The notes under the pieces: model-generated
The model's database searches: none
What the model was told of the DNA's origin: nothing
What the model saw: only the letters and a program-made list of their open reading frames with translations
Assembly (NCBI RefSeq): GCF_027922005.1
Contig: NZ_BSEV01000001.1
Coordinates: 707,638-771,637, forward strand
Direction: 5' to 3'
DNA: 64,000 bases
Origin: Streptosporangium carneum
GTDB taxonomy: Bacteria; Actinomycetota; Actinomycetes; Streptosporangiales; Streptosporangiaceae
Made by a program: the position numbers and the translations under genes
Part shown: one piece after another, positions 8,448 through 52,079 of the stretch
Layout: each line of letters begins with the position of its first letter
Numbering within the stretch: position 1 is the stretch's first letter

Positions 8448-8468
8448 GAGGGCTCGTTCGCCTCCGAA

Positions 8469-8741: not shown

Positions 8742-8849
8742 GGATGCTCCCAGAACGTGGGGGATGAACATAAGGGAGACGGGCGGTGTCCGCACGGAGT
8801 TGGCCCGCGGTGGTGTCCTCATCCGGACAACGCGAGAGAGCAAATCCCG

Positions 8850-29189: not shown

Positions 29190-29692
29190 CGACAACCACT
29201 CCAAGATCGGAAGAAACTTATCTATCCGTCTTCAAGGCGGTCCGCCTGCGGCGGCCCGCACGCGTCGGGCGGTCGTTGGCCGCACTGCGGCTCTTCGGCT
29301 GGTCGCGGCCACCGCCGCCCACGCGCCTGACCATTGCACGAACAACTTAAGTCGGTAGAAGCTCATCACGATCGACGGCGTGTCGACCGATGTGCAGATC
29401 ATGGGCAGTGGCCGTTAGAGCCTGCCTCTGGCGGGGGCTCCGGCTCCGCGCTGATCATCTCACGTGGGGTGAACTTGCGAGATAGCTGGTGTGGAACCTG
29501 ATCACCTCGCACACCGTCAACCCAGGCAAGCCTAGACCGGCTCCTCCGGCTCAAGCCCGGTTATGACGTAGAACTCACCTCCACCAATTCAGGAAAAATC
29601 ATCCTTCGGGAAACTCGGCGTGGTTTACGAAGCTCACTTCACGTGGAATGACAGAATTGCGTCGCGAGATTCGGCCACGAGAGGAGGCGGGT
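29190..29692. other. 503-bp region without intact gene
   Basis: Base composition drops towards the right, leading into the low-GC defence-like operon. Short frames such as LRLKPGYDVELTSTN (about 29548-29592) look like debris of lost genes. The promoter of the following operon should lie in the AT-rich part after 29580; no confident -35/-10 pair was fixed. Confidence 0.45.
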
Positions 29693-30007
29693 ATGCCGAC
29701 AGCAAATAATACGTTGATTTTCTTTGGGCTTCTCGGCGGATTGCTGCCCGACTTGCTGCGCTTCATCAAGGGCAGAAACCAAGGATTCCCTGATTATTGG
29801 AGGAAGTCGAGCTTTTGGTTAGGTTTAATACTCCTCATGTTACTGGGCGGTTTTGCGGCGTGGATTGGCCGCGCAGATGAAGTCACAGAAGCACTCGCTT
29901 ACGGGTACGGCGCCCCCGAAATACTCAGCAGGATCCTCGGGAAGGATCCGGAAACAGAAGCTACTCGGGGAGGAAAATTCCGTCTGCGGGCGTGGTGGGA
30001 CAGCTGA
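29693..30007 (+). CDS. Small two-helix membrane protein, first gene of the CHAT/QueC operon
   Basis: 104 residues from the ATG at 29693 behind GAGGAGG. Two hydrophobic segments (about residues 6-23 and 36-55) and a soluble C-terminal half with EVTEALAYGYGAPEILSRILGKD. It ends 17 bp before the CHAT gene start and shares its low GC content. Membrane partners are common in defence operons as effectors or anchors, but nothing in the sequence proves that role. No family recognised. Confidence 0.65.
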   Translation: MPTANNTLIFFGLLGGLLPDLLRFIKGRNQGFPDYWRKSSFWLGLILLMLLGGFAAWIGRADEVTEALAYGYGAPEILSRILGKDPETEATRGGKFRLRAWWDS

Positions 30008-30024
30008 CGAGGGAAGCTCAATCG

Positions 30025-33000
30025 ATGGAGATTACGAGATTCGAGGTGGGTTGGAGGCAGGACGGCCGACGTAGCGGCTGGCAATGCCTACCTGGCCAAA
30101 ATGCGCTCCTCGGGACAGAGGAGTTCTATCCACTAAGGCGGTGGACGCGATGGAGAGTATGGCGGCTCCGTAAAGCGTACGGCTTGGATACCCAGAGGCG
30201 CTTCTGGGACCTTGTCGAGGACAAGGAGTTCTTGGCGTGGTGGAATCAGGCTGCCGCTGGCGGACACGACAAACTTTTTTTACTACGTTTTCCTCCGAAA
30301 GTGTGGGAGCTGCCATGGGAACTGCTAGTTGAAAATCTTAAAGCCACTCGCATTCATCCGCATGTCCTGATTGCCCGAGGGGTCGATACCTCAATCCCGG
30401 AGTCACCTAGAGTCTTCGATAAGCCCCTGAAGATTCTTATTCTCAAAGGCGCAATACATGCACGCGGGTATAGTCGGCTGAATCTCGACGGCGAGACGAA
30501 ATTGATCATGAGTGCCTGGAGTGGATTGCCTCAGGAGGCGCGCCGGTGCGTTTTGGAGCCAGTTATTACGGACAAAATCAAAGGTAAGGCTATGACCATA
30601 ACAGAGCTACCAGACCTCTTGCGAGAACATTTGCCAGACGTCTTATGGTTCAGTGGGCACGGTCGACGGGATCCGAAACCGGGTCTGCTGTTCGCTGACG
30701 GCACCTGGGTTCCGCCTCAACGCTTCGCTGAGTCGATCACAGCATCTGGTCATGTACCGCTGTATACGGTGTTCTGGGCGTGTGACACTGGCCGGAGTGA
30801 CCCTTCTGACGCTGGCAATGTGTCATCGCCGGCATTCTTTGCTGCCCTCACGCAAGCCGGAGTCATGTCGAGCCTCCTCGTGCAGGCACCCATCGGGGAC
30901 ATCAGCGCAACGAAGCTCGCTCACAAGCTGTTTTTTTCACTTGCAACTGGCCTTTCGCTAGAGGCCGCGACCGCCAGAGCGCGAGCTGATCTCCTTGACG
31001 ATGCCGCCGCCCGGAAACTGGACTGGTCACTTCCGGTTGTGTGGAGTTCGGGCCTACCAGAATTGCGCCTTGAGTGGGACTCAGTGGAACGAGCGCGCCT
31101 GCAATTTCTGGGGGCTGAGATCCTGGCCCGGGCGCTGCTCAGTCCTTCGCAGCTTCTCGGCGCGCCGACTTCGCAAGAACGGGACCGCGCCTCGGCGTGG
31201 GTAAGGCGACTTGGGAACTGGATAGTCGGGGAGTTCAGCAGCGAGAACAAGTACGTCTGGTTGCGAACACTGCAGGCAATACAGGCGGATACCTCGCTTC
31301 TGGTGATCTGCGTCGACCTGTCCGTAGATGTGGGTAGGCCCCAGACTGTGGAGGACCGCCTAGCGAGCTGGGCCGAGCAGGTCTACCTCCGCATCCGCCC
31401 TGGGAAGATCCCCAGGCAGATGACGAGCATCCTCACAATGATGCAAGAGCACCCACAGAAAGGTTGGCGAGATCTGTGCTCTATGACCGATATCTTCCTG
31501 GCGGTCGTGCAGCCGCCGACTTACGAGGCCACGTGGTTCTGGCAGAACCTCCAGCGTGCCGCAGTAGCCGCGGTCCTTAGCCCTAACCAGGTTCCCCACG
31601 ACATCATCAACGGTTGGGGATGGGCTGCGGACCGCATCAGCGCGATGCTTGATGATCAGATAATCGAGGCGGCCGTCCGGCAAGCCCCCAGGCTGGCCCA
31701 GGCCCTTGCAGTGCTCGGCACCCCGATTCCACCCACCTACCTGCGGCTCACGGGTATAACGGACGGACAGCCCAGCACCGTTCGTGACTGGGAGCTAGCC
31801 GATACTGTCCTGGTTAAGACGCTTTCAGGCGGACGGGTGATGGCAGCGGCCGCCCAAGACTACATAATGCGGGCACTGCCCGATCGAGAGATACGGCAGG
31901 CGCATCAGGACTGCATAGCAATCCTCTCCGAGCTCCGGCCGAGCTTGGAGGTCAGCGACAACCTGCTGGGGCACCTGATCAACGCCCGTATGGACGACGA
32001 GGCACTCATGCAGGCTGCCTACCTCTGCCAGCAATACTGGAGAGATAACCAGCCACAGGCGGTTCGCCGCACGATCCGGCGTCTCGGTAGCCTGCAAACC
32101 GATCTTCCCAGCGAGGCGCGGCTCATAGCGGCGTGGGCGCACGTAGTCCTTGGGGATATGGTGCGGGCTAGGTATTGGCTTGATCGGGCACACCCGGTAG
32201 CCCTTCTCGACAGCGCGTGGAAGTGCGCACTTCTAGCCGAGCTCCTCAAGAGTGAGGGAACCGAGGTTTCAAGACAGGGCACGCTCGACAACATCAACCA
32301 GGCAGTGGAGTTCTGTACCGAGGCACTCCGGAGTGGGGACGACCAGACTCGGTTCGGGGCGCAGCGGCAACAGCGGGCATACCGACAGAACCGGGCCCGA
32401 ATCATGCAGTATCTATTTTACGATGCCAGCGGTGCGGCGGCTGAATACCACAGCTTGATCAATGAGTCGCGTAATGACCTAGGGGCTGACCTGGATGTGG
32501 CCATTATGAGGCGGAATTATGCGGAGTGCCTTACAGTCCTCGCCACAGGCCCTGAGGACCACCGATGGGATGATGCCCGGACGAAGTTGCAAGAAGCTCT
32601 CGAAGCAGCCAGCGCCTACCCGCAACTGCCAGTGATATCGGAGATCCTTTACGAGCAAGCCGGGATGGCTGAAGCCGAGTCCGCACGCGCCGTGGCAGAG
32701 CGACTTCTTGGCGAATGCATCGAGGCGGCGAGCGAGGCAGGACACGAGATGATGGTCGCTATCGCCGAGAACAAGCGATTCTGGCTGACCGGGCCATTCT
32801 CAATGGATACGTGGCAGGAAATCGCCGACCGGCTGGAAGGCTATGCCAATCATGGCTGGGCTGCCCGGAGCCTCATGAACAGCCGCATCCGGGCGGCACA
32901 GGTGCTTGCCGTAGAGCACGACTTTAACCGTGCCTGGTCTCTTCTCCAAGAAAATCGCAGCCTCCTCGCCCATAGTCGCGCTTTTTATATCGGTAGAAGC

Positions 33001-33168
33001 GACGAGTGGAGGATCGTGCTCACATATAGCGGGCTGGAGGTCCTCGCAGCGGAAAACAGCAGCGCGGGGCAGTACTGGCAAGAGTTCCTTCAGAGATATC
33101 CGTGGAGTAGTGAATGGCTGGAAGAACGGGCTATTCATGATCCGGCACAGGCGTGGGGGCAGTTGTGA
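30025..33168 (+). CDS. CHAT-domain protease with long helical-repeat C-terminus
   Basis: 1047 residues from the ATG at 30025 (AGGGA upstream; a GTG at 29992 would overlap the previous gene). The caspase-like CHAT domain spans about residues 90-365: LPWELL, the catalytic His in FSGHGRRD (His212) and Cys in FWACDTG (Cys253), ending LDWSLPVVWSSGLPEL. From about 380 to the end the protein is all-helical with TPR/ARM-like repeats, likely a sensor or substrate-docking scaffold. CHAT proteases cut partner proteins in several anti-phage systems (for example with gasdermins or Craspase). Its stop overlaps the next start (TGATG). Confidence 0.88.
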   Translation: MEITRFEVGWRQDGRRSGWQCLPGQNALLGTEEFYPLRRWTRWRVWRLRKAYGLDTQRRFWDLVEDKEFLAWWNQAAAGGHDKLFLLRFPPKVWELPWELLVENLKATRIHPHVLIARGVDTSIPESPRVFDKPLKILILKGAIHARGYSRLNLDGETKLIMSAWSGLPQEARRCVLEPVITDKIKGKAMTITELPDLLREHLPDVLWFSGHGRRDPKPGLLFADGTWVPPQRFAESITASGHVPLYTVFWACDTGRSDPSDAGNVSSPAFFAALTQAGVMSSLLVQAPIGDISATKLAHKLFFSLATGLSLEAATARARADLLDDAAARKLDWSLPVVWSSGLPELRLEWDSVERARLQFLGAEILARALLSPSQLLGAPTSQERDRASAWVRRLGNWIVGEFSSENKYVWLRTLQAIQADTSLLVICVDLSVDVGRPQTVEDRLASWAEQVYLRIRPGKIPRQMTSILTMMQEHPQKGWRDLCSMTDIFLAVVQPPTYEATWFWQNLQRAAVAAVLSPNQVPHDIINGWGWAADRISAMLDDQIIEAAVRQAPRLAQALAVLGTPIPPTYLRLTGITDGQPSTVRDWELADTVLVKTLSGGRVMAAAAQDYIMRALPDREIRQAHQDCIAILSELRPSLEVSDNLLGHLINARMDDEALMQAAYLCQQYWRDNQPQAVRRTIRRLGSLQTDLPSEARLIAAWAHVVLGDMVRARYWLDRAHPVALLDSAWKCALLAELLKSEGTEVSRQGTLDNINQAVEFCTEALRSGDDQTRFGAQRQQRAYRQNRARIMQYLFYDASGAAAEYHSLINESRNDLGADLDVAIMRRNYAECLTVLATGPEDHRWDDARTKLQEALEAASAYPQLPVISEILYEQAGMAEAESARAVAERLLGECIEAASEAGHEMMVAIAENKRFWLTGPFSMDTWQEIADRLEGYANHGWAARSLMNSRIRAAQVLAVEHDFNRAWSLLQENRSLLAHSRAFYIGRSDEWRIVLTYSGLEVLAAENSSAGQYWQEFLQRYPWSSEWLEERAIHDPAQAWGQL

Positions 33169-33899
33169 TGGGGACAGGTTCGCTTGGCGGCGGCGGAAGC
33201 GGAGGTAGCGGAGGAGGGGGAGGTTCCGGCCGCGCCGGTCTGGTCAGCTACCGTTTCTGCGGCGGCTCGATGTCTAACGCAAAGATTTCACAAAACGATA
33301 TTAGAAAGGAAATATCAGACCTGTTAAGTCGGCGAGCCAGCGCAGCATTCCTGAAAAAGCAGTTCACCAGCCCGATCGTGGCAAACATCTACAAGCACCT
33401 AATGAACCTCGCGCTCGCCAGGACTACAGCTGACCCGCTGGATCGACTCACCGAGGGCTTACAGGTCGACTCTACACCTGGCTTTCTTGTGCGGCTCGCC
33501 AACGAAATCGTCAGTGCGGATGCCAGCAGTGAGCCTGACCGACGGGTGCGCGAGACGGCACGTGTTTGCCTAGAAGACTTCCTGATCCTAGCTACCGGGA
33601 ACGACCTCGACCTTTACACGTCAGGGACCCGTCAGGAGGCTGCCCAGAGGCTGAAGTCGTCAGTGCTCGAAAACACTCTGGGAAACTTCCTGGCTAGTCT
33701 GATAGTGCGCGTCGTTGAACGGGAAGAAATAGAGAGGCTCTCGGCTGAGGCCGTGCTGCAGCTTCAGGAAGACGCACAGCGGCGGGCTAATATGGCGATT
33801 GACAGCTTTAAGAGCAAGTTTCCGGCCTACAAATACCGCGACTTCTTCAAGTATGTCCAGCAGGAACCGGCCTGGTTGCTGAGGGAGATTTCCTCATGA
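33168..33899 (+). CDS. QatB-like protein with glycine-rich N-terminus
   Basis: 243 residues. The ATG at 33168 overlaps the CHAT stop. The first 24 residues are MGTGSLGGGGSGGSGGGGGSGRAG, an exposed, flexible tail; after loss of Met it begins with Gly. The rest (35-243) is helical with no enzyme motif. QatB proteins of Qat defence likewise begin MGTS-like and glycine-rich and are encoded directly before the QueC-like QatC, as here; recent work on Qat and type IV CBASS indicates that such QueC-like enzymes attach a deazaguanine to a partner N-terminus. I infer this protein to be the substrate; sequence homology to QatB beyond the tail was not tested. Confidence 0.65.
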   Translation: MGTGSLGGGGSGGSGGGGGSGRAGLVSYRFCGGSMSNAKISQNDIRKEISDLLSRRASAAFLKKQFTSPIVANIYKHLMNLALARTTADPLDRLTEGLQVDSTPGFLVRLANEIVSADASSEPDRRVRETARVCLEDFLILATGNDLDLYTSGTRQEAAQRLKSSVLENTLGNFLASLIVRVVEREEIERLSAEAVLQLQEDAQRRANMAIDSFKSKFPAYKYRDFFKYVQQEPAWLLREISS

Positions 33900-36763: not shown

Positions 36764-36952
36764 ATGTCCCTGATGGTGATGAAGAACTACCCACCCGAGT
36801 TCAAGGCCGACGCGGTGGCGCTGGCGCTGTCGAGGCCGGACCGGACGATCACGTCGATCGCCCGGGATCTGGGCGTCAGCCGTGAGACGCTGCGGGTCTG
36901 GGTGCGGCCCGACACCGTCGGGGCAAGGCATGGTCCCACCCCGCCAGCCTGA
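36764..36952 (+). pseudogene. IS3-family OrfA fragment
   Basis: MKNYPPEFKADAVALALSRPDRTITSIARDLGVSRETLRVWV is the N-terminal HTH of IS3-type OrfA. It then runs into unrelated sequence (antisense of an IS30-type fragment) and stops. Confidence 0.75.
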
Positions 36953-38100
36953 CGAAACCAACGCGTCCCCACCGCCGGCGACACGCCGATCTCCATCGCG
37001 GCGTCCTCTGAACTCACTCCACGAGCGATCGCTCGCCAGAACCGCACACGATCCTCACGCCAGGCGACAGCCAGCCGTCCCAGTGAGGGGATCTGACCGC
37101 GATACAACCGGACAGCCTGCTGCTTCTTGCCCAGGCCCAATTCGCCAACACCTCCAACGACGAAGTGTTGCGAGCACCGATTGAATCCACCCTCGCTACC
37201 GCGATCGGTGTAGAAGATCACCCCGTCGATGTTCCCGCCCCGCATGACCGCGGCCATCTGCAGCGAGGCGACCGTCAGGGCGGCATCGTGATGCTCACTC
37301 ATGGCATAGCCGAGCAGGCGGCGGGAGAACAGGTCCTCCACCGTGGCCAGATACAGCTTGCCCTCATCGGTGAGGATCTCGGTGACGTCGCCGCACCACA
37401 ACACGTCCGCGGCGACCGCATTGAACTGGCGGTGCACCAGCTCCGGTGCCGCAGGCGCTTTGCCCTGCCGGGTCAGCGAGCGGGGCAAACGCCGTATACG
37501 AGCCATCAGGCCGAGCTCCGACATCCGGGTCGCGACCGTGTTCACCGACACCTGCCAGCCGTGTTCGCGCAGGTCATGGGTGATGCGCGGGGAGCCGTAG
37601 GTGCGGCCGGAGTCCTCGAAGGCGGCGGTGATCGCCGCATCCAGCTCCTCTCGCCACCGCTGGCGGTCACCCGGCGCGCGATCACGCCACTTGTAGAACC
37701 AGGACTGCGAGACTCCCAGGATCCGGCAGGCCGTGGCGTGGGGAACGCCATGCTCGGTCTTCTGGGAGGCGATGAAGGCTGCCACGCTCACCGGCCCGTC
37801 GCCTCTTTGACCCACAAGACCACCGAGCGCTTGAGCACTGTGAGGATGGGTGACGTGCCCCCGGGCCCACTCGGCCTTTTGCCGACGCAGCCGGGCCAGC
37901 TCCTCACGCTCGGACTCGATCAGTTCCCCATCAGCATCACGCTCACGGGCCAGGCGGTCCATCTGCATCCAGTTGGCCAGCGTGCTCGCGTTCATCCCCA
38001 GGTCCCTGGCGACCGAGGCGATCGATTTCCCGGCCTCCCGCACGATGCGCACCGCACCGACCCGAAACTCCGGATCGAAGCTGCGTCTGGTCTCTCTCAT
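36787..38100 (-). pseudogene. Chimeric IS3 OrfAB / IS30 transposase fragment
   Basis: From 38100 leftwards: OrfA HTH (FDPEFRVGAVRIVREAGKSIASVARDLG), then OrfB with helix-turn-helix (HATACRILGVSQSWFYKWR) and DDE core (FNAVAADVLWCGDVTEI; FYTDRGSE), cut at 37192 before the last catalytic Glu. The frame continues by chance into an IS30-type N-terminus (VRFWRAIARGVSSEDAAMEIGVSPAVGTRWFRQAGG), then antisense of the OrfA fragment. Confidence 0.8.
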
Positions 38101-40814: not shown

Positions 40815-43800
40815 TCACCCCTGGGGATCGAGGAAGGTTTCGATCCGGCCGGCGGCGGGCAGCAGCGCAGTCGGCAGGAGCCCGCGGAGTTGCGGATCGA
40901 GGTCGGCCGGGCGGGCCATGCGGGCATGGGCCAGCTGGCGAGTTTCAACGATCACATCGAGCAGCGTGGCCGGGTCGAGCGAACCTCCCGAATCCGGCGG
41001 CACGGCTAGCAGGATCGCCTGCGGGGCGCGGGCCGCCGGGGCATCGAACCCGAATGCGGCAGCCGTGGTGTGTTCGGTATCGGGAATCACCTCGGTCCAC
41101 CGGTCGATCACGGTCGCCGCCACCTGGTCGAGGGTCGGCGGACCATATGCCACCACGAGCCGCTCGGTGTTGGCCGGACCGCTTTGCCAGGGGTCGGTGG
41201 GCTTGGTCGCCCACGCTTGCAGCGGTTGCCTGGCGAGGAACTGATGGACTTCGAGGCGGGCAAGGGCCGGTCGCACTGCCGCGACCACCGTCAGCCATTC
41301 GAGGTCGAGGTCGGCCTGAGCGAAGGACGGCAGGCCGTCGGGCCGTGACAGCAGGGCCAGTTGCCCGGTCGGACACACCAACGCGGTGATTGCCTCCAGC
41401 AGGCCGTCCCGGTCGAGTTGCTGCGCGGAAGGCGCCATCGCGCGCCGTGCCAGCAGCAATTCCCGAGCCATCAGTGGAGAGTTGGTAAGGATGCCCCATC
41501 GGCGGCAGGCCAGCAGCAGCCGCTCCAGCGCCGTCGCGTCGGTGACCGTGCCGAGGAGGTCGGTGAGCACCTCGCTGGTCCTCAGCAGCCGCAGGTATCG
41601 CCCCCGCAGATCGTCTTCAATGCCGCTCGGCCCTGTCGGCTTGCCGGGGCGGGTAGTGATCGCGTCAGGTTCCGCCGGTGAGCGACCCAGCAGGCCAACC
41701 AACCGCACCGCGGCTTCGTAGCGTTCAGAACCGTCGAAGCCGTCGAAGCTGTCGATGTCGCCCAGCGCGTCGGTGGCGAGCCGCTCCAACTCGGTGCGCG
41801 AGAGCGTCAGCGCATCGGCGGGGCCAAGCCCGAGGTCGGCAAGTGTGACCGAGGAAGAGCCAGCTGTCCACACCCAGTCGATGGCCTCACCCGCCTGGGT
41901 GGCCACGAATCTGGCCACGGCAGGGTCGGCGATCTCGATTGGGGACTGCTCGGCCCGCGCGAAGTTGTCGGCGGGCTCGGGCGGGGCGGCGGCGTCGGGG
42001 ATGAGCACCAGCACGCTGGTGGCGACGGCTCGGCCCTGCCGCGGTGTGCGTATGACTTCGAGCTCGGGCGGCCGGGACAGACCCGCGGCAGCGTCCATCG
42101 CGGCGCCTGCCACTGTGGCGCGTCCCTGGGTGACGTGGTGTACGGCTTCGGCGACGAGGAGATCGCCGTAGGCATTCACTGCGGCCCGCAGCTCCTCGAG
42201 CTGGGCGCGCTGCTGGGCAGAGAAGCCCAGCCCAGCCGGGTCGGTGGCGAGAACGGCTAGGCCATCGCACACCCGTCGCCCGGCGTGCTCGGTGCGTAGC
42301 CGGAACTGGTCTCGGAGCTGGTCGACCAAGGCGCGGGAACCGGCGATACGCTCCACTTCACGACCGAGCGCCTCGGCGAGATGAGCACCAAGGCGGACGT
42401 GTTCGCCGATGCGGGCTGCCTCCCGTACGGTACGAGAGGTGAGGTCCATGTGCCATCGGCTCGGTTCAGGGTCGCTGACTGCGCGATCGCGCAGCACGGT
42501 CGCGGTCAGCGCCTGACCTGGGGAGGGAGCGTGCAGCAGTCCGGCGGAGGTGGGGCCGGGGCTGCCCGGGCGGGGCGCGTCCACCCAGCCGTATGCGCCC
42601 AGCACGGGCTCCACACCTGCATCGAGCAGGGTCTGCAAGCGGCGGGTCGGCGGGCCAAGCAGCCAGGGGTCGAGCCGGTAGAGCGCGGTGTCGACGGTGG
42701 CGCGCAGCAGCCGCTCTAGCCGATCCTCGGGTATGTCGGCCAGCTGCTCTATGCTCTTGGCGACCATCTGGAACGCGTGGGCGGCGGGCGTGGCGCCGCT
42801 CACCAGCGCCTGGGTGGTGCGGTTGATCCAGTGCTCGAGCCGACCCGGCTCAGTGAATGGCCGAGCCACCGGCTCTGGACCCGGGGTGGTGTCGCCCAGT
42901 GCCTCGCGGCCGACGTCGCCGATAGCCACCTGCAGGGCCCGGATCACCAACCGCAGCAACAGACTGGCGGGGCGGAACCGTAGGAACGCCTCCTCCAGGA
43001 GCTCGATGGACTGGAACGTCGTCGGGTTCCTGTGGGCGAGTTCGACGAGCTGCTTGAGCACATCTGTGACCGTGCGGTTCGCGGGAAGCTCCGCTGGCAC
43101 CACGAGCGGCAGCGCCAGCGGTCGTGACCTGCCGCGCGCGCCGTAGCGCCGGGTCGGATCGAGACCGAGCTCGGCACTGAGCGGGTGGTCATCACGCCAT
43201 GCCTCATCGAATTCCGTCCAGCTCACGTCGGCGCCAAGCAAAAGCAGCGACAGCCACCAAAGCTCCAGCGGGAATGCGCGCCGGTGGCGGTAGCCGGGAG
43301 CGCTGGGCACATGTCCGATCAGGTCGAGCAGTTCCTCGGCGGAGGCGCCCGCGGCCGTGCCACGGCCTTCGGCTGCGGCCTGCCACTGCTCGCGCAGCAG
43401 CATAAGTGGCCTGATCAGGGCGGCTTCGACATCGTCGGCGTCGGCGATCCAGCGAGACAGTGCCGTCGCCGGGAGCAAACCGTAGGGCTGTGAGCCGACG
43501 CGCAGCACGGGAAACGGCCCCTCGGGAAAGAGCGCCTGGCGCGCCCAGGCGGCGGCTTCTGCGGCGAGTGGCAGGCCCCACACGTCCGTGGCGGCAAAGC
43601 CCCACAGTGCGGGCCACAGTGCCCCGACCATCGCTGTGGAGTCGGAAAAGTGTTGTCCGGGCGGCCCGGGGAGGGCGCCGAGCGCGTCGGGGTCACCCGT
43701 GAGAGCCATGCTGATCGTGCGGTCGTTGTCAGTGGGGAGGGCGTGGAGGAGATCGAACCAGGTGTCGGCGTCCTGGGCCAGGTTTGCGGCGGGGGTGCCG

Positions 43801-44426
43801 TCGACGGAGTTGGTGGCGGTGCCGAGGGCGATCAGGCCGAGCGACCCCGCGTCGCGGTGGTCGCCGAACAGCGTTCTGGGCATGCCTTGTCCGAGGCCGG
43901 TGACGACGAGTAGGTCGATGTCGTCACCGTTGCCGTCAAGCTCAATTTCGCCCGCCAGTCCGGCGAGTTTGGCCTCCTCCCAGTCCTCCCACCACCGCAC
44001 GACTGAGAGATTGTCGGGATCGTAAGGCTCGATGGTGAGCCGGTCGTGATCCACCTGCAGGGTAAGCACGTGCCGAGGTGCTCCACCGCCGGAAGCTAGC
44101 CATACGAGCAGTTCGGTCGGAAAGCTGGATATCCGGGGGAAGACGGGCCTGACCCTGAGCTCACCGGGGTCGATCACCGCCCCTTCTGGCATGTAAGTGC
44201 GAACGAGGAACGCCGCTCGGGGAGCGCCCACCGCCGTGGCGAATTCGTTCCATGCCGCGCGGTCGACCTGTTGAGCGTAACGCTGAAGCGCGGTCATCTC
44301 GGCCTCGGTCGGCCGCGGGTCGTGGCGGGTGAGCCATGGCTCGTCCGGCACGACGCGCAGGCATAGCCGAGATCCGGAGAACCGGGTCTCGATTCTCAGC
44401 GGCAGCAGCACGCCTACCTCGGTCAT
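40815..44426 (-). CDS. Unrecognised large protein (1203 residues) of the DUF6603/M64 operon
   Basis: ATG at 44426 with GAGGAG upstream. No signal peptide; mostly helical with long Ala/Leu-rich segments. Notable parts: VGVLLPLRIETRF at the start, FPVLRVGSQPYGLLPATAL in the middle (about 290), and conserved-looking WLSLLLLGADVSWTEFDEAWRDDHPLS. No enzyme motif is recognised. Its size and its place between two other large proteins suggest a part of a multi-protein assembly; that is inference. Confidence 0.75.
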   Translation of the reverse strand: MTEVGVLLPLRIETRFSGSRLCLRVVPDEPWLTRHDPRPTEAEMTALQRYAQQVDRAAWNEFATAVGAPRAAFLVRTYMPEGAVIDPGELRVRPVFPRISSFPTELLVWLASGGGAPRHVLTLQVDHDRLTIEPYDPDNLSVVRWWEDWEEAKLAGLAGEIELDGNGDDIDLLVVTGLGQGMPRTLFGDHRDAGSLGLIALGTATNSVDGTPAANLAQDADTWFDLLHALPTDNDRTISMALTGDPDALGALPGPPGQHFSDSTAMVGALWPALWGFAATDVWGLPLAAEAAAWARQALFPEGPFPVLRVGSQPYGLLPATALSRWIADADDVEAALIRPLMLLREQWQAAAEGRGTAAGASAEELLDLIGHVPSAPGYRHRRAFPLELWWLSLLLLGADVSWTEFDEAWRDDHPLSAELGLDPTRRYGARGRSRPLALPLVVPAELPANRTVTDVLKQLVELAHRNPTTFQSIELLEEAFLRFRPASLLLRLVIRALQVAIGDVGREALGDTTPGPEPVARPFTEPGRLEHWINRTTQALVSGATPAAHAFQMVAKSIEQLADIPEDRLERLLRATVDTALYRLDPWLLGPPTRRLQTLLDAGVEPVLGAYGWVDAPRPGSPGPTSAGLLHAPSPGQALTATVLRDRAVSDPEPSRWHMDLTSRTVREAARIGEHVRLGAHLAEALGREVERIAGSRALVDQLRDQFRLRTEHAGRRVCDGLAVLATDPAGLGFSAQQRAQLEELRAAVNAYGDLLVAEAVHHVTQGRATVAGAAMDAAAGLSRPPELEVIRTPRQGRAVATSVLVLIPDAAAPPEPADNFARAEQSPIEIADPAVARFVATQAGEAIDWVWTAGSSSVTLADLGLGPADALTLSRTELERLATDALGDIDSFDGFDGSERYEAAVRLVGLLGRSPAEPDAITTRPGKPTGPSGIEDDLRGRYLRLLRTSEVLTDLLGTVTDATALERLLLACRRWGILTNSPLMARELLLARRAMAPSAQQLDRDGLLEAITALVCPTGQLALLSRPDGLPSFAQADLDLEWLTVVAAVRPALARLEVHQFLARQPLQAWATKPTDPWQSGPANTERLVVAYGPPTLDQVAATVIDRWTEVIPDTEHTTAAAFGFDAPAARAPQAILLAVPPDSGGSLDPATLLDVIVETRQLAHARMARPADLDPQLRGLLPTALLPAAGRIETFLDPQG

Positions 44427-44436
44427 CACAGTCTCC

Positions 44437-47145
44437 TCAACTTGTCGGCGGCGGTGATGGTGGGGATGGGCGCTGCGGGGTCAGGCTGTTGCCGGCGATC
44501 AGCACGCGGACCGGCTCGGCGAACGCCTGGTCGGCATACAGCGCGCCGTCGGCGTTGGCGGGGACGGGCTGGCCGTCCCCTGGGATCGGTCCGCCAGGTG
44601 GTTCACCGACGAGTGGTTTGTTGTAGAAGCGGTAGCCCGTGGGAGGCTCCTCCAGCACGACCCAGTGGGTTTCAATCTGGTCGGGCTGGAACCCCTGGAA
44701 ACCGAAGAACGTGACGTCGGCACCGATGCGACCCTGAAAGCTCGGCAGCACGCGGGCCGCGTCGTCTGGCGGGTCAAGGTCGAAGCGGACCTGCCCGGCG
44801 TGCTTGGCGGACACCAGGTACAAGAGGGTCTTGGGGTAGCGGAGGAAGAGCTGCCCGCGGAAGACGAGCACCAGGTCGGTGCCGGAGGCCCCACCGGGGC
44901 GGTGGGCTGCGGCGCCGAGGTCGCTCGCGTCCGGCCAGTTGGCCACGCCGATGATGTCGTCGATCCGCTCTCCGCTGCCGGTGTTCGCGCGCTCCCAGAA
45001 CACCCGCAACGGGGTGCATCCCGCGGCGACTGGCATGTTGCGCCAGCGCAGCTCGGTGAGGAGCTGGGTGTTGTAGCCGAGAAGGAAGGCATCGGTGAAG
45101 ACCGGATTAGTCTCCAGCGCGATGACGGTGTTGTCCTTCAGCTCGCCGACGCCGGGCAGCAGCCACTCGGCGAAGTTGTCGTTCAAGTCGCGCCAGACCG
45201 GCCGGGGAAGCCCGACGCATACTTCGGGCGGGGTCAACGGCTGGCTCGGGTCGAGGCCGTCGATCGTGCCCAGCACGCGCACGCGCGCCGGGGCGTCCTC
45301 GGCGGTGGGGTCGAAAAGCGGGACGACACTGTCGGCGAGGGATTCCAGGTCGACCAGTCGGCAGTCCGACTCCGGGATGTCCTCTTCCAGGGCCCTGATC
45401 AGTCTGATCAGGTCCGCGAGATTTTCGCGCGGGTCGGGGAAGGTTGCCAGCACCTCCGCCAGCCGCCTGCGCATCGCCTCGACGGCCCTCTCATCACCGG
45501 CGTCGACTCGGGTGGCGGCCGTGAGCGTCTCGATGGCCCGTCCCCACGCCAGATCCAGGCGCCCACCGCCGGCCGCGTCCAGCAGCCTTTGTCGCAGCGT
45601 GGTGCTCTGGCTGCGTAGTGGCGACGGCACGCCGGACAAGTCGAGGCGCCCCAGGCCGTTCACCGCTCCGGTCGGGTCGATCTCACCGGAGAGGCTGGCT
45701 TGCCAACGGCGCTCATCGAAGTCGGAGACACCGAGCCGCTGGAACGACGGTACGCCGTCTTGCGAGGGCTGGGCGTCTTGCCGGCAGCGGTTGGCCGCCT
45801 TGAGCACCTCTGCCGGATCGGCGCTGCCCTGGGCGGCCAGTGCCGTACGAGCGGGGCCCAGCCGCAGCGCGCGGCGCACCGCTGTGGAGAACACGCCGCG
45901 GGGCAGGGCCCGCCCAGGGGCGGTGGCGAGGTCGGCCACCGGGCCATCCGGGGTGACTACGCGGCGCAGCGCCGGGCCGAGCAGCCACAACCGACGCAGC
46001 GCGTCAGAGGGCAGGCGTTTCGCCCACAATGCCCCCGAGGCGGCCAGCCCCAGTGACAGATACGCCAGGCGCTGCGCGGCCACTGCTTGCGCGCCCGCGT
46101 GCTCGCGCGCCTCCTCAACCAGGGTCTCCTGCAACCGGATGCCGAGCTCTAAGCCGAGGCCGGCGGCGCCCCGGTGACGCGGATCGCCATTGAGAGTCCG
46201 GCTCCAGGTGCTGAGCTGGCCGCCCCAGGCCTCGCCGTACCCGGGTGGGCCGATCACCGGACGGTCCAGGGGGTCGGGATCCGGGGTGATGCGCTCGACC
46301 AGGTCGGAGGCGACGTCGGAATCCAGGGCATCGTCGGATGACCTGACTGGAGCCAGCGCGCCACGGATCTTCAAGGCGGTGTCGAGGCCGTAGGGATAGA
46401 GCGCCGGTGCGCGGCCCGTCTCCGGGTCGGCGTCCCCAGGCCGCAGCCGCTCCGCCAAGATGGGGAAGCTACCCGCCGGCGTCGCGGTACGAAACCGCCA
46501 GGTGTCGAAGACCGGCAGCGTCACCGGCGCGCTGCCGTCCCACGCCGTGACGATCTGGCTGCCGGCCTGCCGATAGGTCGGCACCAACACGGCGACATAG
46601 GCCAGGCCACCGGTCAGCGGCCGCCGAGACAGCAAACGGGCGATGCGGTGGCCGTCCGCGTGCTGCACGTGGGCGAACGGGCAGATCGCGGACGGCCCGG
46701 CCAGCGTGTGCAGCGCCTGTACGGTGGCCCCGAGTGTGACCTGTTGCCCGGTGACGGTCAGCTCGTCTTCGGTACCGACGACGAGGGCCAGCCACGTGTG
46801 CAGGTTCCCGGTCCCGTCCGGCGGGTTGCTCGCGGGGGTGTAGCGCCAGGGCAACGCCGGGTCGGCCAATTCGATGTGGGAGCACTTGTCGGTCTCGGCA
46901 TCGATCGCACCGGGCGCCGGATACCGGCCCACGATCGCGCCGGGTTTGAGACCGACGACGTCCTGCGGACCGGTCAGGAGGAATCGCACGTCGCCAGCGG
47001 CGGTGTTGGTGATCGTCACGTCGTCGGGGCCGCGCCCGGTCAGCGTGACGCTCGTGCTCACGAGAAGGCGCCCCTGCTCGGTTCCGGTCACCAGATCGGC
47101 GACGCGTTCGCGTGTCCAGCTGAGGAACGTCAAGCTCGAGGGCAC
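44437..47145 (-). CDS. Unrecognised large protein (902 residues) of the DUF6603/M64 operon
   Basis: GTG start at 47145 with GAGGAG. The first 200 residues are beta-rich (SLTFLSWTRERVADLV, LTGPQDVVGLKPGAIVGRYPAPGAIDAETDKCSHIEL); the middle is helical and Arg/Ala-rich; the last 250 hold LGYNTQLLTELRWRNMPVAAGCTPLRVFWE and DLVLVFRGQLFLRYPKTLLYLVSAKHAGQ. No membrane segment or signal peptide. Not assignable to a known function. Eleven bases separate it from the next gene. Confidence 0.75.
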   Translation of the reverse strand: MPSSLTFLSWTRERVADLVTGTEQGRLLVSTSVTLTGRGPDDVTITNTAAGDVRFLLTGPQDVVGLKPGAIVGRYPAPGAIDAETDKCSHIELADPALPWRYTPASNPPDGTGNLHTWLALVVGTEDELTVTGQQVTLGATVQALHTLAGPSAICPFAHVQHADGHRIARLLSRRPLTGGLAYVAVLVPTYRQAGSQIVTAWDGSAPVTLPVFDTWRFRTATPAGSFPILAERLRPGDADPETGRAPALYPYGLDTALKIRGALAPVRSSDDALDSDVASDLVERITPDPDPLDRPVIGPPGYGEAWGGQLSTWSRTLNGDPRHRGAAGLGLELGIRLQETLVEEAREHAGAQAVAAQRLAYLSLGLAASGALWAKRLPSDALRRLWLLGPALRRVVTPDGPVADLATAPGRALPRGVFSTAVRRALRLGPARTALAAQGSADPAEVLKAANRCRQDAQPSQDGVPSFQRLGVSDFDERRWQASLSGEIDPTGAVNGLGRLDLSGVPSPLRSQSTTLRQRLLDAAGGGRLDLAWGRAIETLTAATRVDAGDERAVEAMRRRLAEVLATFPDPRENLADLIRLIRALEEDIPESDCRLVDLESLADSVVPLFDPTAEDAPARVRVLGTIDGLDPSQPLTPPEVCVGLPRPVWRDLNDNFAEWLLPGVGELKDNTVIALETNPVFTDAFLLGYNTQLLTELRWRNMPVAAGCTPLRVFWERANTGSGERIDDIIGVANWPDASDLGAAAHRPGGASGTDLVLVFRGQLFLRYPKTLLYLVSAKHAGQVRFDLDPPDDAARVLPSFQGRIGADVTFFGFQGFQPDQIETHWVVLEEPPTGYRFYNKPLVGEPPGGPIPGDGQPVPANADGALYADQAFAEPVRVLIAGNSLTPQRPSPPSPPPTS

Positions 47146-47156
47146 GGCAATCTCCT

Positions 47157-50100
47157 CTAAAAACTGATCCGCGACACGTGATCGGATGCGGGCAGAGCCG
47201 CTGCGCCGACCCCGGCGGCAGTGAGCTGGTGGGCCTGGCTTTCGCTGATGTCGTCGACCCGTACGGCGCCATCACCGCTGCGGACCTGCCATCGCTCGTC
47301 GGCGACGGCGATCGCGGCATCGACGGGTTCACGTGCCAGGTGCCCGGTACGGTTTCCGACGGCGTTGACCAGCCAGCCCGGTACGGGGAACGCGAAACCC
47401 GTCACCGGCTCGGTCTGTGGCAGTCGGATCTGCTGCACCTGCACATCAAGGACGCGGGTCGAGCCCTCGGCCAGCCCGGCGACGCCAAGTTTCACCCCAC
47501 CGTCGAGGCGCTCGAAGGCCTTGCGGTTGAGCGCGTCTGCGTCGGACAGCTCGGCGAAACTCCCGGGCGCGAACCAGTCGACAGCACTGCCGGTCACGGC
47601 CGTGCCTCTGGCGCTGACGGTCTCAGGCTGGCTCAGCGGTGAGCCCTCAAAGCGCTGGAGCAGCAGGTTGAGCGGAGCTCTGGACTGGGTCCACAAGATC
47701 TGCCCGAGCGGGGAGAAAACCGGCAACGCCAGCCCAGAGGCGGGCTCGACCACAGCGAAACGATCCTCGCCGCCCTCCACCGACAGGTTGGACGGCTTGA
47801 CGAGCTCCCTTGCGAGCTCGAGGACGGCGCTGGCCACAGGGCTGGCTACGGGCCGCGCCTGCGAGCCGATACTGAAGGAATCCTCCCAGCAGATGTCGAA
47901 AAACAAGATCTCGATGCAGAATCTGCCGTGGAAGGTGATCGGGCCGGGGCCGGACAGTTCTCCTCTGAGCGACACCCCCGCCAGGTTTCTGCGCCCAAAC
48001 CGGACCCGAAACGAGGCCCTGAAGTCGATCTGGAAGAAGAACGGCTCAAAGCGGATCAGCGCATCGAAACCGAGGAAGCCCCGGGCGGTGATCGATCCTG
48101 AGTTGATCGCCACCTCCACCGAGGCGCCGAGCTGGAGGGTGTTCGTGGTGATCGCGAAGTAGCCCTCGAAGCGCAGGTACAGAAAATCGCCGGGGCTGCC
48201 TCGGGTCATGGCCACGCGGGTGAGCGAGGGCGGCATCACCAGCGGAGCGGGAGAGTAGGCGGGGTGGAGACCACCCACCGAGAGCAGTGCGTAGGGCTGG
48301 TCACCCCAGCTGAGCCGAAACGCTGCCCCGCCGGCCAGTTCCAGCACCTCCATGAGAGTGCTATCGATCAACACCGCGTCGAACTCGAGCACCTTCTTGG
48401 CGACGTCGAGCAGGCCGATGATGTTGAGGCGGATCTTCAGCAGCGGGCCGTTGCCTAAGGGGTTGGCGATCGTCGCGCGCGCCGACCCCAGCACCATGAT
48501 CTTGGTAGGTCCAGGCAGCTCAATAAAGATCCCGAGGTCGAAGTGGACCAACTCGACCCACGAGAGCTGGAGTGTCGGCCCCACCATGATCACGCCTGCG
48601 GCGCGGGGGAAGACCGTGTCGAGCTCTCGGTTCAGGGCGGCCGCGTTGCCGATCGGGTCTTCGGGGGCGAGGATGCGCCGGGCCGCGCCGGAGGCGATCC
48701 TGGCTCGCAGAACATCGACATCGATGCGCCGATTCAGCGCAAGCAGGCCACCCACCGACGACAGAGTGAAACCGAAGCCCAACTGGACCGGCGGAAAGGA
48801 TGCCCGCAGCACGACCAGCAGCGCAAAACCGCCACCGGGCAGCTTGGTATCGAGCAGAGCCAGGGCGTCGACGCCGATGTCGCCGATGCCGACCTGAAAG
48901 TCTCCGGCGTAACGGCCCGCGTCCTGGTCGAAGGCGATGAACCCGCCGCCCTTCACCGGACCGGCCTCGATCGCCAGGCCCAGCCCGCGCGGCGCCAGGA
49001 ACCGCACCCCGATCGCCGCCACACCGAGATCGAAGGTGCCGGGCGGCGGCGGGCCTTCGCGCCCGCCGCGCAACAGCAGGTCGGCTCCAGTACCGACGCC
49101 CTCGACGGAGGCGGTGAACGGCCCGAGCGTCACCTGGCCGGTGAGCCGGGCCTCGACCGTGACCGTGGGCGTGGTGCCCGCGACGAACAGCAGCGCGAGG
49201 TCAAGCCGGTCCAGCCGGGCCGGGCCCAGTTCCACCTCGAGAGGAACGGCGACTGCCAGACCCGCCCCGCCGCGGAAAGTCAGTCCTTCCTCCTGGGTCC
49301 AACGCACCCCGAGGTCGAACTCCATCTGGAGGTTTTCGGGCAACAGGGAGGCGAGGAAGCCATCCGCATCGGCGAGTGAGACGACGAACTTTCCCTCACG
49401 CACTCGGGCATCGACGATGAGATCGGCCCGCACACCGTCCGCCCTGGCTGCGAACTTCGCCCCGACGGCTGCCTGCAGCGCTTCCGCGGTGAGCCGAGTG
49501 CCGCCCACCTCACCAAAGATCAGCAGCGCCTGGCCGGGCGAGGCGAGGCGGGCGGCACTGAGGATGATCTCGCCCTTGACAGCACCGACCAGCGTGATCG
49601 CCTCCACCGTCCCCGGCGGATGCAGCCGCAGGCCGTCGCCGACATCCAGCGTGCCGGACGTGCTCAACCGGACCTGCCAGGCAGCGTCAGGCGGGGAAAG
49701 CACCACATCGGCCTCGGGCAGCGAGGCAATCCCTATGGACAGGTCGAGTGCGGTCGGCAGCGTGCCCTGGCTGTCCGGTGCGAGGTCGAACAGCACGACG
49801 CGCAGCTCGGGCACGGCCGGGTTGAACGCGGCCGGCATACGCACCGCGTCCAGCAGCGCCCTGAGCCGCTCCAGCACCAGCAGTGCGTCCAACGGGGCGG
49901 TCGGCGAACCCCACCCGTACACCTCCCGCAGCAGTGTGGCCGGGTCGCTGAGGAACGTCCCCACGCGGTCGAAGTGCAGCTCGCGGTGGGTTCCGGCGGG
50001 ACGGTCGGCGGTAGCGGGGATGGACGTGTTCTCGGCGAGCCCGAGCAGGGTGAGCGTGCGGGCGAGGATCGGCCGATGACCCTCCACGAACCCGACGACG

Positions 50101-50513
50101 ATGTAATCGAGGAGCCGCTCGGGCAGGTGCTCGATGATCGCGCGCACTTCCCCGGCGAAGCCGCCCAAATCCGCCGGATAGGCGTTCCTCACCCGCTCGG
50201 CCAGCGCCTTCACCTTGAAGAAGGCATCCTTCACCAGGGGTACGAGCTCCTGAACCGCCGCCCTGATCGCACCGGCATTGCCGTCGCCGATCGCGTCGAT
50301 CAGCGGCTGGACCTTCGGTGCTACGGCGGCGACCGCGGCCGCCGCCGCCGGCACCTCCGGAGCGGTCTCGACCGCGGCGCGTACCTCGGGCGGCAGCGGC
50401 AGACCCAACTCCTCAAAGAACTGAACCGCCGCCGCCGGGCTGGCCAGTCGCTGCTGCACCGGCTCCAGCGCATGAGCCAGCACCAGCGCCAGGCCCTCCA
50501 CCGTTCCGGCCAT
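47157..50513 (-). CDS. DUF6603-domain protein (1118 residues)
   Basis: ATG at 50513 overlapping the M64 stop (TGATG). The N-terminal 230 residues are helical. From about 230 to 900 the protein is a long run of amphipathic beta-strands with Gly-rich turns: GGFIAFDQDAGRYAGDFQVGIGDIGVDALALLDTKLPGGGFALLVVLRASFPPVQLGFGFTLSSVGGLLALNRRIDVDVLRARI is the DUF6603 hallmark. The strand pattern resembles an extended beta-helix, beta-barrel or lipid-transfer-like tube. No signal peptide. Function of the family is unknown to me. Confidence 0.82.
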   Translation of the reverse strand: MAGTVEGLALVLAHALEPVQQRLASPAAAVQFFEELGLPLPPEVRAAVETAPEVPAAAAAVAAVAPKVQPLIDAIGDGNAGAIRAAVQELVPLVKDAFFKVKALAERVRNAYPADLGGFAGEVRAIIEHLPERLLDYIVVGFVEGHRPILARTLTLLGLAENTSIPATADRPAGTHRELHFDRVGTFLSDPATLLREVYGWGSPTAPLDALLVLERLRALLDAVRMPAAFNPAVPELRVVLFDLAPDSQGTLPTALDLSIGIASLPEADVVLSPPDAAWQVRLSTSGTLDVGDGLRLHPPGTVEAITLVGAVKGEIILSAARLASPGQALLIFGEVGGTRLTAEALQAAVGAKFAARADGVRADLIVDARVREGKFVVSLADADGFLASLLPENLQMEFDLGVRWTQEEGLTFRGGAGLAVAVPLEVELGPARLDRLDLALLFVAGTTPTVTVEARLTGQVTLGPFTASVEGVGTGADLLLRGGREGPPPPGTFDLGVAAIGVRFLAPRGLGLAIEAGPVKGGGFIAFDQDAGRYAGDFQVGIGDIGVDALALLDTKLPGGGFALLVVLRASFPPVQLGFGFTLSSVGGLLALNRRIDVDVLRARIASGAARRILAPEDPIGNAAALNRELDTVFPRAAGVIMVGPTLQLSWVELVHFDLGIFIELPGPTKIMVLGSARATIANPLGNGPLLKIRLNIIGLLDVAKKVLEFDAVLIDSTLMEVLELAGGAAFRLSWGDQPYALLSVGGLHPAYSPAPLVMPPSLTRVAMTRGSPGDFLYLRFEGYFAITTNTLQLGASVEVAINSGSITARGFLGFDALIRFEPFFFQIDFRASFRVRFGRRNLAGVSLRGELSGPGPITFHGRFCIEILFFDICWEDSFSIGSQARPVASPVASAVLELARELVKPSNLSVEGGEDRFAVVEPASGLALPVFSPLGQILWTQSRAPLNLLLQRFEGSPLSQPETVSARGTAVTGSAVDWFAPGSFAELSDADALNRKAFERLDGGVKLGVAGLAEGSTRVLDVQVQQIRLPQTEPVTGFAFPVPGWLVNAVGNRTGHLAREPVDAAIAVADERWQVRSGDGAVRVDDISESQAHQLTAAGVGAAALPASDHVSRISF

Positions 50514-51640
50514 CAAGCACCTCTACCGCGGAGCATTCGAACCAGCGGCCCGACTACCGCTCGGCGCAGCACGCGCGCCAGACGGGGCCGGCCAGTCAAC
50601 CGGCGCGTCAGCCAGGGACCGACCCGGCGATAGACGAAGTCTATGGCTCGCATCACTGTCCGCTCCTCGGCCAGATGACGGTTCCGCCAGGATCGCAGCC
50701 ACACCAGGTCAGGGTGATAGATGGCGCCGCACAGGATCAACGTCAGGGGACATTGTGTACAGCTGAGCTTGAGGATCTCCTTCGTCATTGCATCCCGGCA
50801 AACCGCGCAGAAGGGTGTCGGGGGAGTCACGGTGCGCATCGCGCAGTCGTGCTCCGAGCGATAGACGCCGCAATGGCTGTACAGCGCCCCCTCGAACAGG
50901 CCCACCGTGCCGGGCGGGTATTTACTCGGCGTCCCTTTGTTAGATGTGGTGCAGGTCTGATCGGCTTTCAACTTGGGCAGCGAACCTATAGCGGGCGCGA
51001 GGTGGTGGCGCCACTTCAGTTTGGATTGGTCAGTCTCGATCGTGACGTTGGGCTGAGGTGGTTCTTCACCACTGGCGTAGCGGTCGGGACCGTCATAGTC
51101 GTACTCGTCGGCGAGCCCCAAGACATGGCCCAGTTCGTGAGCGACCACCTCCTTCAGGTTAGCCGTCAGTGAGACAGCGGCGACCTGCCCCACCTTTGCC
51201 CCGCCCTCCAGCGTCGAGTTGACGAGCACCACGATCGCCTCCCAGTCGGCCACCTCGTCGTTCACCGTGTCCAGCACGAGGTCGTTATCAACCGTGAGCA
51301 CACGCCGTCTAGTGTCATCTCCGCAGCGAGTTGCATCGAAGTACGTCCGCCGGAGCGCCCCGGTGCCGCCGATATCCTCATTCCCACAGGCTTTGGGGTC
51401 GTCCACACCGCGCTCGGTCGAATGCACGTCGATCCGGTGGACGTTGATGAGGCCCCATAGCGTCGTGAAGGGCTCAATCGCCCTGAGACCATTTACCACC
51501 TCATCGACTTTGGTGTGGTAAAACTCCATATCCTCCGCCAGGAACCCATCTCCTAGAATCACCAAGGTCCAGCGGAAGCGGTCATCCCCATGATCGACGA
51601 TCTTCTTTTTGGTGTCGACCAAGCCGTCTGAGGCGCCCAT
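50513..51640 (-). CDS. M64-type (IgA peptidase-like) zinc metallopeptidase
   Basis: 375 residues from the ATG at 51640. The zinc motif is HELGHVLGLADEYDYDGPD at about residue 168, preceded by RWTLVILGDGFLAEDMEFYHTKVDEVVNGL and ACGNEDI...TYFDATRC, all features of peptidase family M64. A Cys-rich region follows (HCGVYRSEHDCAMRT, PFCAVCRDAM). The last 60 residues are basic (RRVGPWLTRRLTGRPRLARVLRRAV). No signal peptide is visible, unlike secreted M64 members, so it may act inside the cell or leave by another route. Confidence 0.9.
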   Translation of the reverse strand: MGASDGLVDTKKKIVDHGDDRFRWTLVILGDGFLAEDMEFYHTKVDEVVNGLRAIEPFTTLWGLINVHRIDVHSTERGVDDPKACGNEDIGGTGALRRTYFDATRCGDDTRRRVLTVDNDLVLDTVNDEVADWEAIVVLVNSTLEGGAKVGQVAAVSLTANLKEVVAHELGHVLGLADEYDYDGPDRYASGEEPPQPNVTIETDQSKLKWRHHLAPAIGSLPKLKADQTCTTSNKGTPSKYPPGTVGLFEGALYSHCGVYRSEHDCAMRTVTPPTPFCAVCRDAMTKEILKLSCTQCPLTLILCGAIYHPDLVWLRSWRNRHLAEERTVMRAIDFVYRRVGPWLTRRLTGRPRLARVLRRAVVGPLVRMLRGRGA

Positions 51641-51641
51641 G

Positions 51642-52079
51642 TCAGCCCAGAGGCTCCTCTCGAAGCGGGAACCGACCCAGCTCGACCGGCACATGGCCAG
51701 GCAGATCATCCCGCATCACCGCCCGCAGGGCCGATGGCAGCGCGTCCGGCTGTGCGAGGAGTACGACCTCGCGGGCGAGCTCGTCGAGAGGAACGATGAC
51801 ACTGAATGCGCCTGAAGTCAGACGGTTGGGCACCGTGGAGGCCCCTTCCGAGCCACCGAAGATCTCGATCGTTGCCGGCATGGCGCTGGGCACCGCCTGG
51901 CGATATATCACCTGGCCCTCAAGGGTGTGCAGCTCGGCCGTCACCGCGTCGGCCCGCAACTGGACCGTTGTGTCCTCTCCCTCCGGCGCGGCTTTACCGA
52001 CCGGCGTCCGGGACCTCAACCGGATGCCCTTGGTGTCGTAGGCGAACGTGAGCCTCACGGCTGGTGTTCCGACAGCCAT
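51642..52079 (-). CDS. Small beta-rich protein, first gene of the DUF6603/M64 operon
   Basis: 145 residues from the ATG at 52079 with GGAGGG upstream. VGTPAVRLTFAYDTKGIRLRSRTPVGKAAP, then strands and SGAFSVIVPLDELAREVVLLAQP. Ends two bases before the M64 gene start region, so co-translated. It may be an inhibitor or chaperone of the peptidase, which is speculation. No family recognised. Confidence 0.7.
   Translation of the reverse strand: MAVGTPAVRLTFAYDTKGIRLRSRTPVGKAAPEGEDTTVQLRADAVTAELHTLEGQVIYRQAVPSAMPATIEIFGGSEGASTVPNRLTSGAFSVIVPLDELAREVVLLAQPDALPSALRAVMRDDLPGHVPVELGRFPLREEPLG

Follow-up and report, generated by a model that had tools for sequence, protein, structure and literature searches.

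Which protein does a QueC-like enzyme modify, and with what, when it is encoded directly after a protein that starts with a flexible stretch of glycines? The question is raised by an operon of Streptosporangium carneum located in the window analysed here, a stretch of 64,000 nucleotides from contig NZ_BSEV01000001.1 (positions 707,638 to 771,637, forward strand). Its gene order is CHAT protease, QatB-like protein (starting with MGTG), QatC-like enzyme, ASCH-domain protein; qatA and qatD were not found beside it. We consider it likely that the operon is a form of the QatBC immune core equipped with a CHAT protease, in which the MGTG protein is a QatB-type substrate or partner of the QatC-like enzyme and is acylated on Gly2. 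What QatC attaches to QatB is described as an open question in PMC13279940, and the locus lends itself to testing it, since its QatBC-like pair occurs in a genome without a detectable pathway to 7-carboxy-7-deazaguanine (CDG).

Relatives of the operon

The operon set used below comprises ten members including the window, and distant relatives may have escaped the profile scan by which most of them were found. A tblastn search of 72,556 plasmid records yielded a QatC-type match in 64, with at least 80% query coverage in two, from Mesorhizobium (L018) and Bradyrhizobium (L019). Both carry the CHAT, partner (B), enzyme (C) and ASCH genes. A plasmid search with the B protein returned 1 record. A three-row profile run over 84,980 species genomes yielded 35 pattern matches; the relatives number 7 and come from Nonomuraea (L022), Streptosporangiaceae NEAU-GS5 (L023), Paraburkholderia (L024), Rhizobium (L025), Mesorhizobium (L026), a Xanthobacteraceae metagenome-assembled genome (L027) and Bradyrhizobium (L028); L049/G884 was treated as a duplicate of L023 and left out of the counts. 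The CHAT-type cassette is distributed in Actinomycetota and Proteobacteria. In viral contigs there were 18 pattern matches and 0 relatives. A ten-row C profile, on which known members score 574-653 bits and everything else at most 156 bits, found no further CHAT-type members in samples of 297, 397 and 200 genomes. In a midpoint-rooted tree of 31 QatC-like rows a branch supported at 100/99 sets the ten CHAT-type C proteins apart from the other rows, with a program warning that the long row L064 meets the CHAT-type group.

The N-terminal tail of the partner

All eight partners with a readable start, the window included, begin with MG[TS][GS] and a Gly/Ser tail (the starts in L022 and L028 are unreadable at contig ends). 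The window protein starts with MGTGSLGGGGSG, and the others are MGSSGSGAGGGS (L018), MGSGSFGGGSGS (L019), MGSSGAGAGGGS (L023), MGTGSLGGGSGS (L024), MGTGSFGGGSGS (identical in L025 and L027) and MGTGGFGGGSGS (L026). Position 4 is Gly or Ser; exact MGTS occurs in 0/8 and MG[TS] followed by the tail in 8/8. In L018 (8189-8989) WP_258600210.1 is annotated from 8300, probably too late a start: an in-frame ATG further upstream, which overlaps the CHAT stop, extends the protein by 37 Gly-rich residues and restores the tail.

Of the ten invariant alignment columns, eight lie at residues 1-33 of the window protein. Over residues 2-14 the mean pairwise identity, computed ungapped and anchored at Met, is 0.626 against 0.408 +/- 0.037 in within-tail shuffles, a value reached in 0/20,000 (n = 8); when L023, a near relative of L018, is removed, the figures are 0.656 and 0.399. 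Composition shuffles leave shared descent in, and kinship is addressed in part by a comparison with the body and by codon differences. Between subclades the tail identity is 0.579 and the body identity 0.214, with the tail higher in 23/23 pairs. Different codons are used in 168 of the 228 same-residue tail codon pairs, therefore the protein, and not merely the DNA, is conserved in the tail. Residue 3 is Ser or Thr in every partner, for which the product of tail frequencies, relatedness ignored, is about 1e-5.

A first-pass annotation of the window sequence had described the tail as a distinct functional element and named conservation of its first residues among homologues as the check. The tail is indeed a distinct conserved element, and the check came out in its favour: it exceeds its shuffles and the body in identity, its first residues are conserved in the alignment, and no operon (0/8) keeps the genes while lacking the tail. 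The strong conservation of the first residues suggests that the N-terminus enters the QueC-like enzyme encoded next to it, where a small molecule would be attached.

The partner body has a QatB-like predicted fold

The AlphaFold2 model of the partner (8 sequences) has thirteen helices and a mean predicted local distance difference test (pLDDT) score of 79. Residues 2-4 and 7-38 score below 50, and an all-helical body begins at residue 42. VIA-align 2 matched the model to QatB chains 9y01 (Z 11.1; 186 residues, root-mean-square deviation 4.7) and 9y02 (Z 11.0; 182 residues, 4.5), while the next unrelated chain had a Z of 3.7. Foldseek also ranked QatB (9y01, 9y02) first, with a probability of 1.00. 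Identity between partner and QatB across the structural alignment is 11%. A Z of about 11 among helical proteins could by itself reflect a common arrangement; the match is taken to be more than that because Z is far above the unrelated rows, because it spans residues 38-243, and because a QatC homologue is adjacent. Judged from the model, the partner body appears to share the QatB fold, with QatB far ahead of any other structural match.

The statement of the first-pass annotation that QatB proteins carry a comparable start agrees with their MGTS-type starts. Its description of the rest of the protein as an ordinary helical domain is right as to the helices but says too little, since the predicted fold matches QatB.

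The QatC-like enzyme and its ligand site

The NCBIfam QatC model matched 10/10 members (best 1.2e-37), and a profile of the ten C proteins found QatC in the PDB (9vlk) at 8.7e-37. The C proteins retain the SGGxDS loop (SAGxDS in L026), the P(x)4TK motif and the CxxC zinc-site cysteines. T243 and H245 of the window enzyme align with QatC T278 and T280, a correspondence that rests on the aligned motif in E. coli QatC; the motif reads T-R-H in 10/10 members, with the first Thr kept and the second replaced by His. At these positions QueC and Cap9 have the Tyr/Asp that bind CDG, and QatC has T278/T280 instead (PMC13279940). All ten CHAT-type family members have Thr/His in place of these CDG-recognising residues.

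Supply of CDG

No QueC, QueD or QueE was found in the window genome (rated 100% complete, 184 contigs), where the Pfam QueC search also missed the genome's own QatC-like gene, so that weak QueC relatives can escape it. The control genomes yielded QueC in 12/14 and PTPS in 9/14, and in other genomes canonical QueC, QueD and QueE reached much higher scores.

PTPS/QueD together with full QueE was present in 7/7 of the other CHAT-type hosts searched (n = 8 with the window; the chromosomes belonging to plasmids L018 and L019 are outside the set). The QueE profile was built from those 7 hosts, which makes its matches there a matter of construction; a single QueE protein query also finds 7/8, some weakly. 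The L022 genome (G1008, Nonomuraea basaltis; L088, L093) has two PTPS/QueD-QueE gene pairs and no canonical QueC hit.

The comparison was extended to Actinomycetota genomes with QatC-like genes (n = 25, window included; 36 genomes had a QatC-like match, of which 11 weak, partial or duplicate ones were set aside, and the comparison covers carriers of QatC-like genes only). PTPS/QueD occurs in 12 of them and full-length QueE in 3 (G1007, G954, G757), the other QueE hits being partial and at most 34 bits. Hosts with a GTS-type partner (G989, G777, G076, G188, G025, G572, G738, G629, G908) have full QueE in 0/9. Since 22/25 Actinomycetota with QatC-like genes are without full QueE, CDG is argued against as a general host-made ligand.

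In the window strain, host-made CDG is probably not what becomes attached; as we read it, QatC-type enzymes attach some other molecule, in this strain at least. CDG may also be taken up or supplied by phage, or the operon may be idle in the window host.

Proposed mechanism and alternatives

The N-terminal Gly motif and the tail of QatB are essential, a G2D mutation kills defence, and models put the tail in the QatC active site; E. coli structures from two other groups are said to show it there too (PMC13279940). By analogy, methionine aminopeptidase would remove Met1 of the window partner, and the flexible tail would let the free N-terminal Gly reach the ATP-using active site of the QueC fold. 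The enzyme would activate a small carboxylic acid as an adenylate, from which an amide with the Gly amine would form. These steps are proposed because of the Cap9 analogy (PMC11996544) and QatB genetics (PMC13279940). The modified (or engaged) QatB-like protein would then license or trigger the CHAT-TPR protease, perhaps acting in turn on the small membrane protein encoded before it. We infer Met removal, tail threading, acylation, protease control and an anti-phage role; the operon probably serves phage defence. An N-terminal Gly acceptor facing the QueC-like enzyme, as the first-pass annotation had it, remains the best reading of the tail.

Several results weigh against this scheme. The Foldseek E-value for QatB is 0.075, with no hit at E 0.001, BLAST against one canonical QatB found no similarity, and NCBIfam and PADLOC scans gave a QatB family hit in 0/8 B proteins. 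A B-family profile run against PDB sequences produced Gly-rich or helical chance matches only and no QatB, and the partner has no Pfam hit. The window enzyme (2.9e-31, 108.7 bits) is under the NCBIfam QatC cut-off of 280. Pro16 and Trp18, conserved in the QatB tail, are not seen in the eight CHAT-type tails, and Gly-rich tails can be plain linkers. It is solely the gene neighbourhood from which we infer that the QatBC-like pair gates the CHAT protease.

True deazaguanylation, with CDG joined to Gly2 exactly as by Cap9 in type IV CBASS (cyclic-oligonucleotide-based antiphage signalling system), is unlikely. The enzyme belongs to the same superfamily, the acceptor would again be an N-terminal Gly (PMC11996544), and CDG could be made in the 7 other CHAT-type hosts that have PTPS/QueD and full QueE. 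Against this stand the Thr/His at the CDG-recognising positions, the lack of QueC, QueD and QueE hits in the window genome and the sparse QueE and PTPS/QueD among the 25 Actinomycetota; QatBC crystals grown with CDG by Gao et al. showed none, and activity was not reconstituted (PMC13279940). The first-pass annotation had proposed a deazaguanine on the MGTG partner, which the ligand-site residues and the window genome do not support as stated. Its more general remark, that QueC-like enzymes of defence systems attach deazaguanine, holds for Cap9 and its CD-NTase, the only pair for which this has been shown; the reaction of QatC is left open (PMC13279940).

It is similarly improbable that the N-terminus is a pseudo-substrate or gate, which would sit in the QatC-like active site, regulate non-covalently and be withdrawn on infection. 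The same tail conservation would be expected of such a gate, and the failure to reconstitute QatC activity in vitro (PMC13279940) also favours it.

The tail could instead be a cleavage site or tether for the CHAT protease and no acceptor, as the CHAT-type gene directly upstream in 8/8 sufficiently long operons would allow. This is distinctly unlikely: in L021 a canonical QatB starts in much the same way (MGTS..GG) although no CHAT gene is annotated near it, and the tail is already highly conserved at its first residues. That the tail is merely a low-complexity linker without a specific role would fit its Gly/Ser-rich, GC-rich and disordered character and is highly improbable given the constant Ser/Thr at residue 3 and a positional identity above all 20,000 shuffles.

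The CHAT protease as a candidate read-out

The operon ties the QatBC core to a CHAT protease and so makes proteolysis a candidate read-out. All eight operons long enough to reveal the upstream gene have a CHAT-type one there. Pfam recognises CHAT in four (window, L018, L019, L023); L024-L027 were counted by alignment, and L024, L025 and L027 also by BLASTP to the Pfam-recognised members. His223 and Cys264 of the window protein are presumably the expected CHAT catalytic dyad. Cys264 is invariant among the 6 aligned CHAT members. In L026 (3048-6179) the GHG motif reads GIG, which changes the expected catalytic His to Ile and keeps the Cys. The structure model of the CHAT protein is of low confidence (pLDDT 59.7), and its use was limited to the TPR-like part and a resemblance to STAND-TPR proteins; Foldseek matched it to the STAND-TPR protein 6mfv at 3.2e-6 (rank 4, behind SAMD9 chains).

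Comparison with known systems

The locus resembles qatABCD (PMC13279940) in the QatB-like predicted fold, to some extent in the disordered MG[TS] tail, in a QatC-like enzyme that is comparable in length and has SGGxDS and the zinc-site cysteines, and in adjacent, overlapping B and C genes. It differs in having CHAT, ASCH and, in 5/10 operons, a small membrane-type protein like that of the window, whereas qatA and qatD were not found. The QatC TxT motif is T-R-H in the CHAT-type enzymes, the tail is Gly-rich MG[TS][GS] without the QatB Pro and Trp, and the partner is not alignable in sequence to a canonical QatB. A Pfam scan of the 5 operon proteins and 10 flanking open reading frames detected no qatA ATPase or qatD TatD; neither gene is annotated around L018 and L019, where many genes are labelled 'hypothetical'.

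Type IV CBASS also has a QueC-family enzyme acting on an N-terminal Gly (PMC11996544), here proposed only, and its CD-NTase starts with MGGS (PMC13279940). The window partner, however, is QatB-like in predicted fold and not a CD-NTase, and the CDG-recognition Tyr/Asp are absent. A Pfam scan of 15 window proteins turned up no TGT-like Cap10. Csx29 of Craspase (TPR-CHAT) shares a CHAT protease with TPR-like repeats, but in the window the CHAT neighbours are QatBC-like proteins and ASCH instead of a CRISPR gRAMP. Among the matches listed from openly licensed PubMed Central literature there was no description of a CHAT-associated QatBC (or QueC-CHAT) system, and a term search of PMC13329287 found no occurrence of 'CHAT'.

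Classes of QatC relatives

Judged by the partner start, QatC relatives form at least four classes (MGTS, MG[TS][GS], MGH, MPD). Enzymes with MGTS partners have the motif T[RHK][TS], and those with MGH partners (L096, L097, L098, L120) have ATRTTHP. With MPD[DQ]D partners the motif is [TAS][RK][ASP] in 9/9 (L050, L051, L053, L054, L057, L059-L062; ATG or GTG starts). Thr-x-Thr is common to the MGH and MGTS classes, which the signature therefore fails to tell apart. Canonical partners, too, have rigid starts: among 36 examined loci the C frame was placed in 22, with an MGTS partner in 18 and an MGH partner in 4. It was not located in the other 14, and the start search used the listed motifs, so the count is not blind. 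The 36 were drawn from 42 loci, leaving out known members L095 and L125 and fragments L119 and L122-L124. A GTS-type start was found in 9/10 remaining Actinomycetota loci, of which eight have MGTS (initiated by GTG in three) and L066 has MGTC; there was none in L055.

The ligand-site signature shifts with the class, from Tx[TS] (MGTS, MGH) to TRH (CHAT-type) and [TAS][RK][ASP] (MPD), which may reflect co-evolution of acceptor and ligand. A broader reading, possible but tentative, is that QatC relatives acylate protein N-termini with ligands other than deazaguanine, in at least four classes with co-evolved acceptor and ligand, one lineage having become coupled to a CHAT-TPR protease. The four N-terminal classes make the match of acceptor and enzyme testable by tail swaps.

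The MPD-class enzymes form a separate group (100/100) with a window-like gene order, and their partners start with MPDDDR or, by GTG, VPD[DQ]D; from these starts, an MPD-class partner would expose a proline. In L053 the next gene (8143-9390) encodes a helix-turn-helix and IrrE-type peptidase (Pfam Peptidase_M78, 8.3e-18). The MGH-class QatC-like frames are 637-683 amino acids long with a C-terminal extension, and their upstream partners start with MGH[QI]xLG[KQ].

Operon layout and neighbouring genes

Table 1. Features of the operon, in window coordinates
Feature	Position	Strand	Details
Small hydrophobic protein, putative membrane protein (judged by eye)	29648..30007	+	At most 119 aa, or 104 aa from the in-frame ATG at 29693; no Pfam hit
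CHAT (caspase-like) protease with C-terminal helical, TPR-like part	29992..33168	+	Pfam CHAT 2.2e-11
Gly/Ser-rich N-terminus MGTGSLGGGGSGGSGGGGGSGRAGLVSYRFC; proposed acceptor Gly2 once Met is removed	33168..33260	+	
QatB-like partner, 243 aa: disordered tail and predicted QatB-like helical domain (~38-243)	33168..33899	+	AlphaFold2, VIA-align, Foldseek
QatC-like enzyme, 418 aa	33896..35152	+	SGGxDS loop 139-144, TRH 243-245, NPFxxxTK 270-277, zinc-site cysteines
ASCH-domain protein, 148 aa	35122..35568	+	Pfam ASCH 1.8e-8

The CHAT gene ends within TGATG, its stop codon overlapping the partner ATG at 33168, and the partner frame and the QatC-like gene share a four-base overlap. The partner reading frame begins with MGTGSLGGGGSGGSGGGGGSG; at its N-terminus it reads MGTGSLGGGGSGGSGGGGGSGRAG, ahead of the helical body.

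A small membrane-type protein similar to that of the window (again by eye) precedes the CHAT gene in L024-L027, which is 4/9 other operons. The hydrophobic protein at this position in L019 is a different one. None was recognised in L018, where insertion sequence copies lie upstream, or in L023, and L022 and L028 are truncated at contig ends.

ASCH follows in all ten operons (Pfam; window and 9/9 homologues). The first-pass account dealt with the partner and enzyme genes, and the conserved CHAT and ASCH genes were absent from it. The idea that the ASCH protein is a YqfB-type eraser found no support, since Activating signal cointegrator 1 supplies its nearest matches in the PDB.

Near the right end of the operon lies a transposase-type gene (36787-38100, minus strand; HTH_Tnp_1, HTH_21, rve). 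Further on, two large open reading frames without Pfam hits (40815-44429 and 44437-47145) stand beside a minus-strand pair formed by a DUF6603 protein (47157-50516; 1.1e-112) and an adjoining M64-family peptidase (50513-51709; 2.5e-33).
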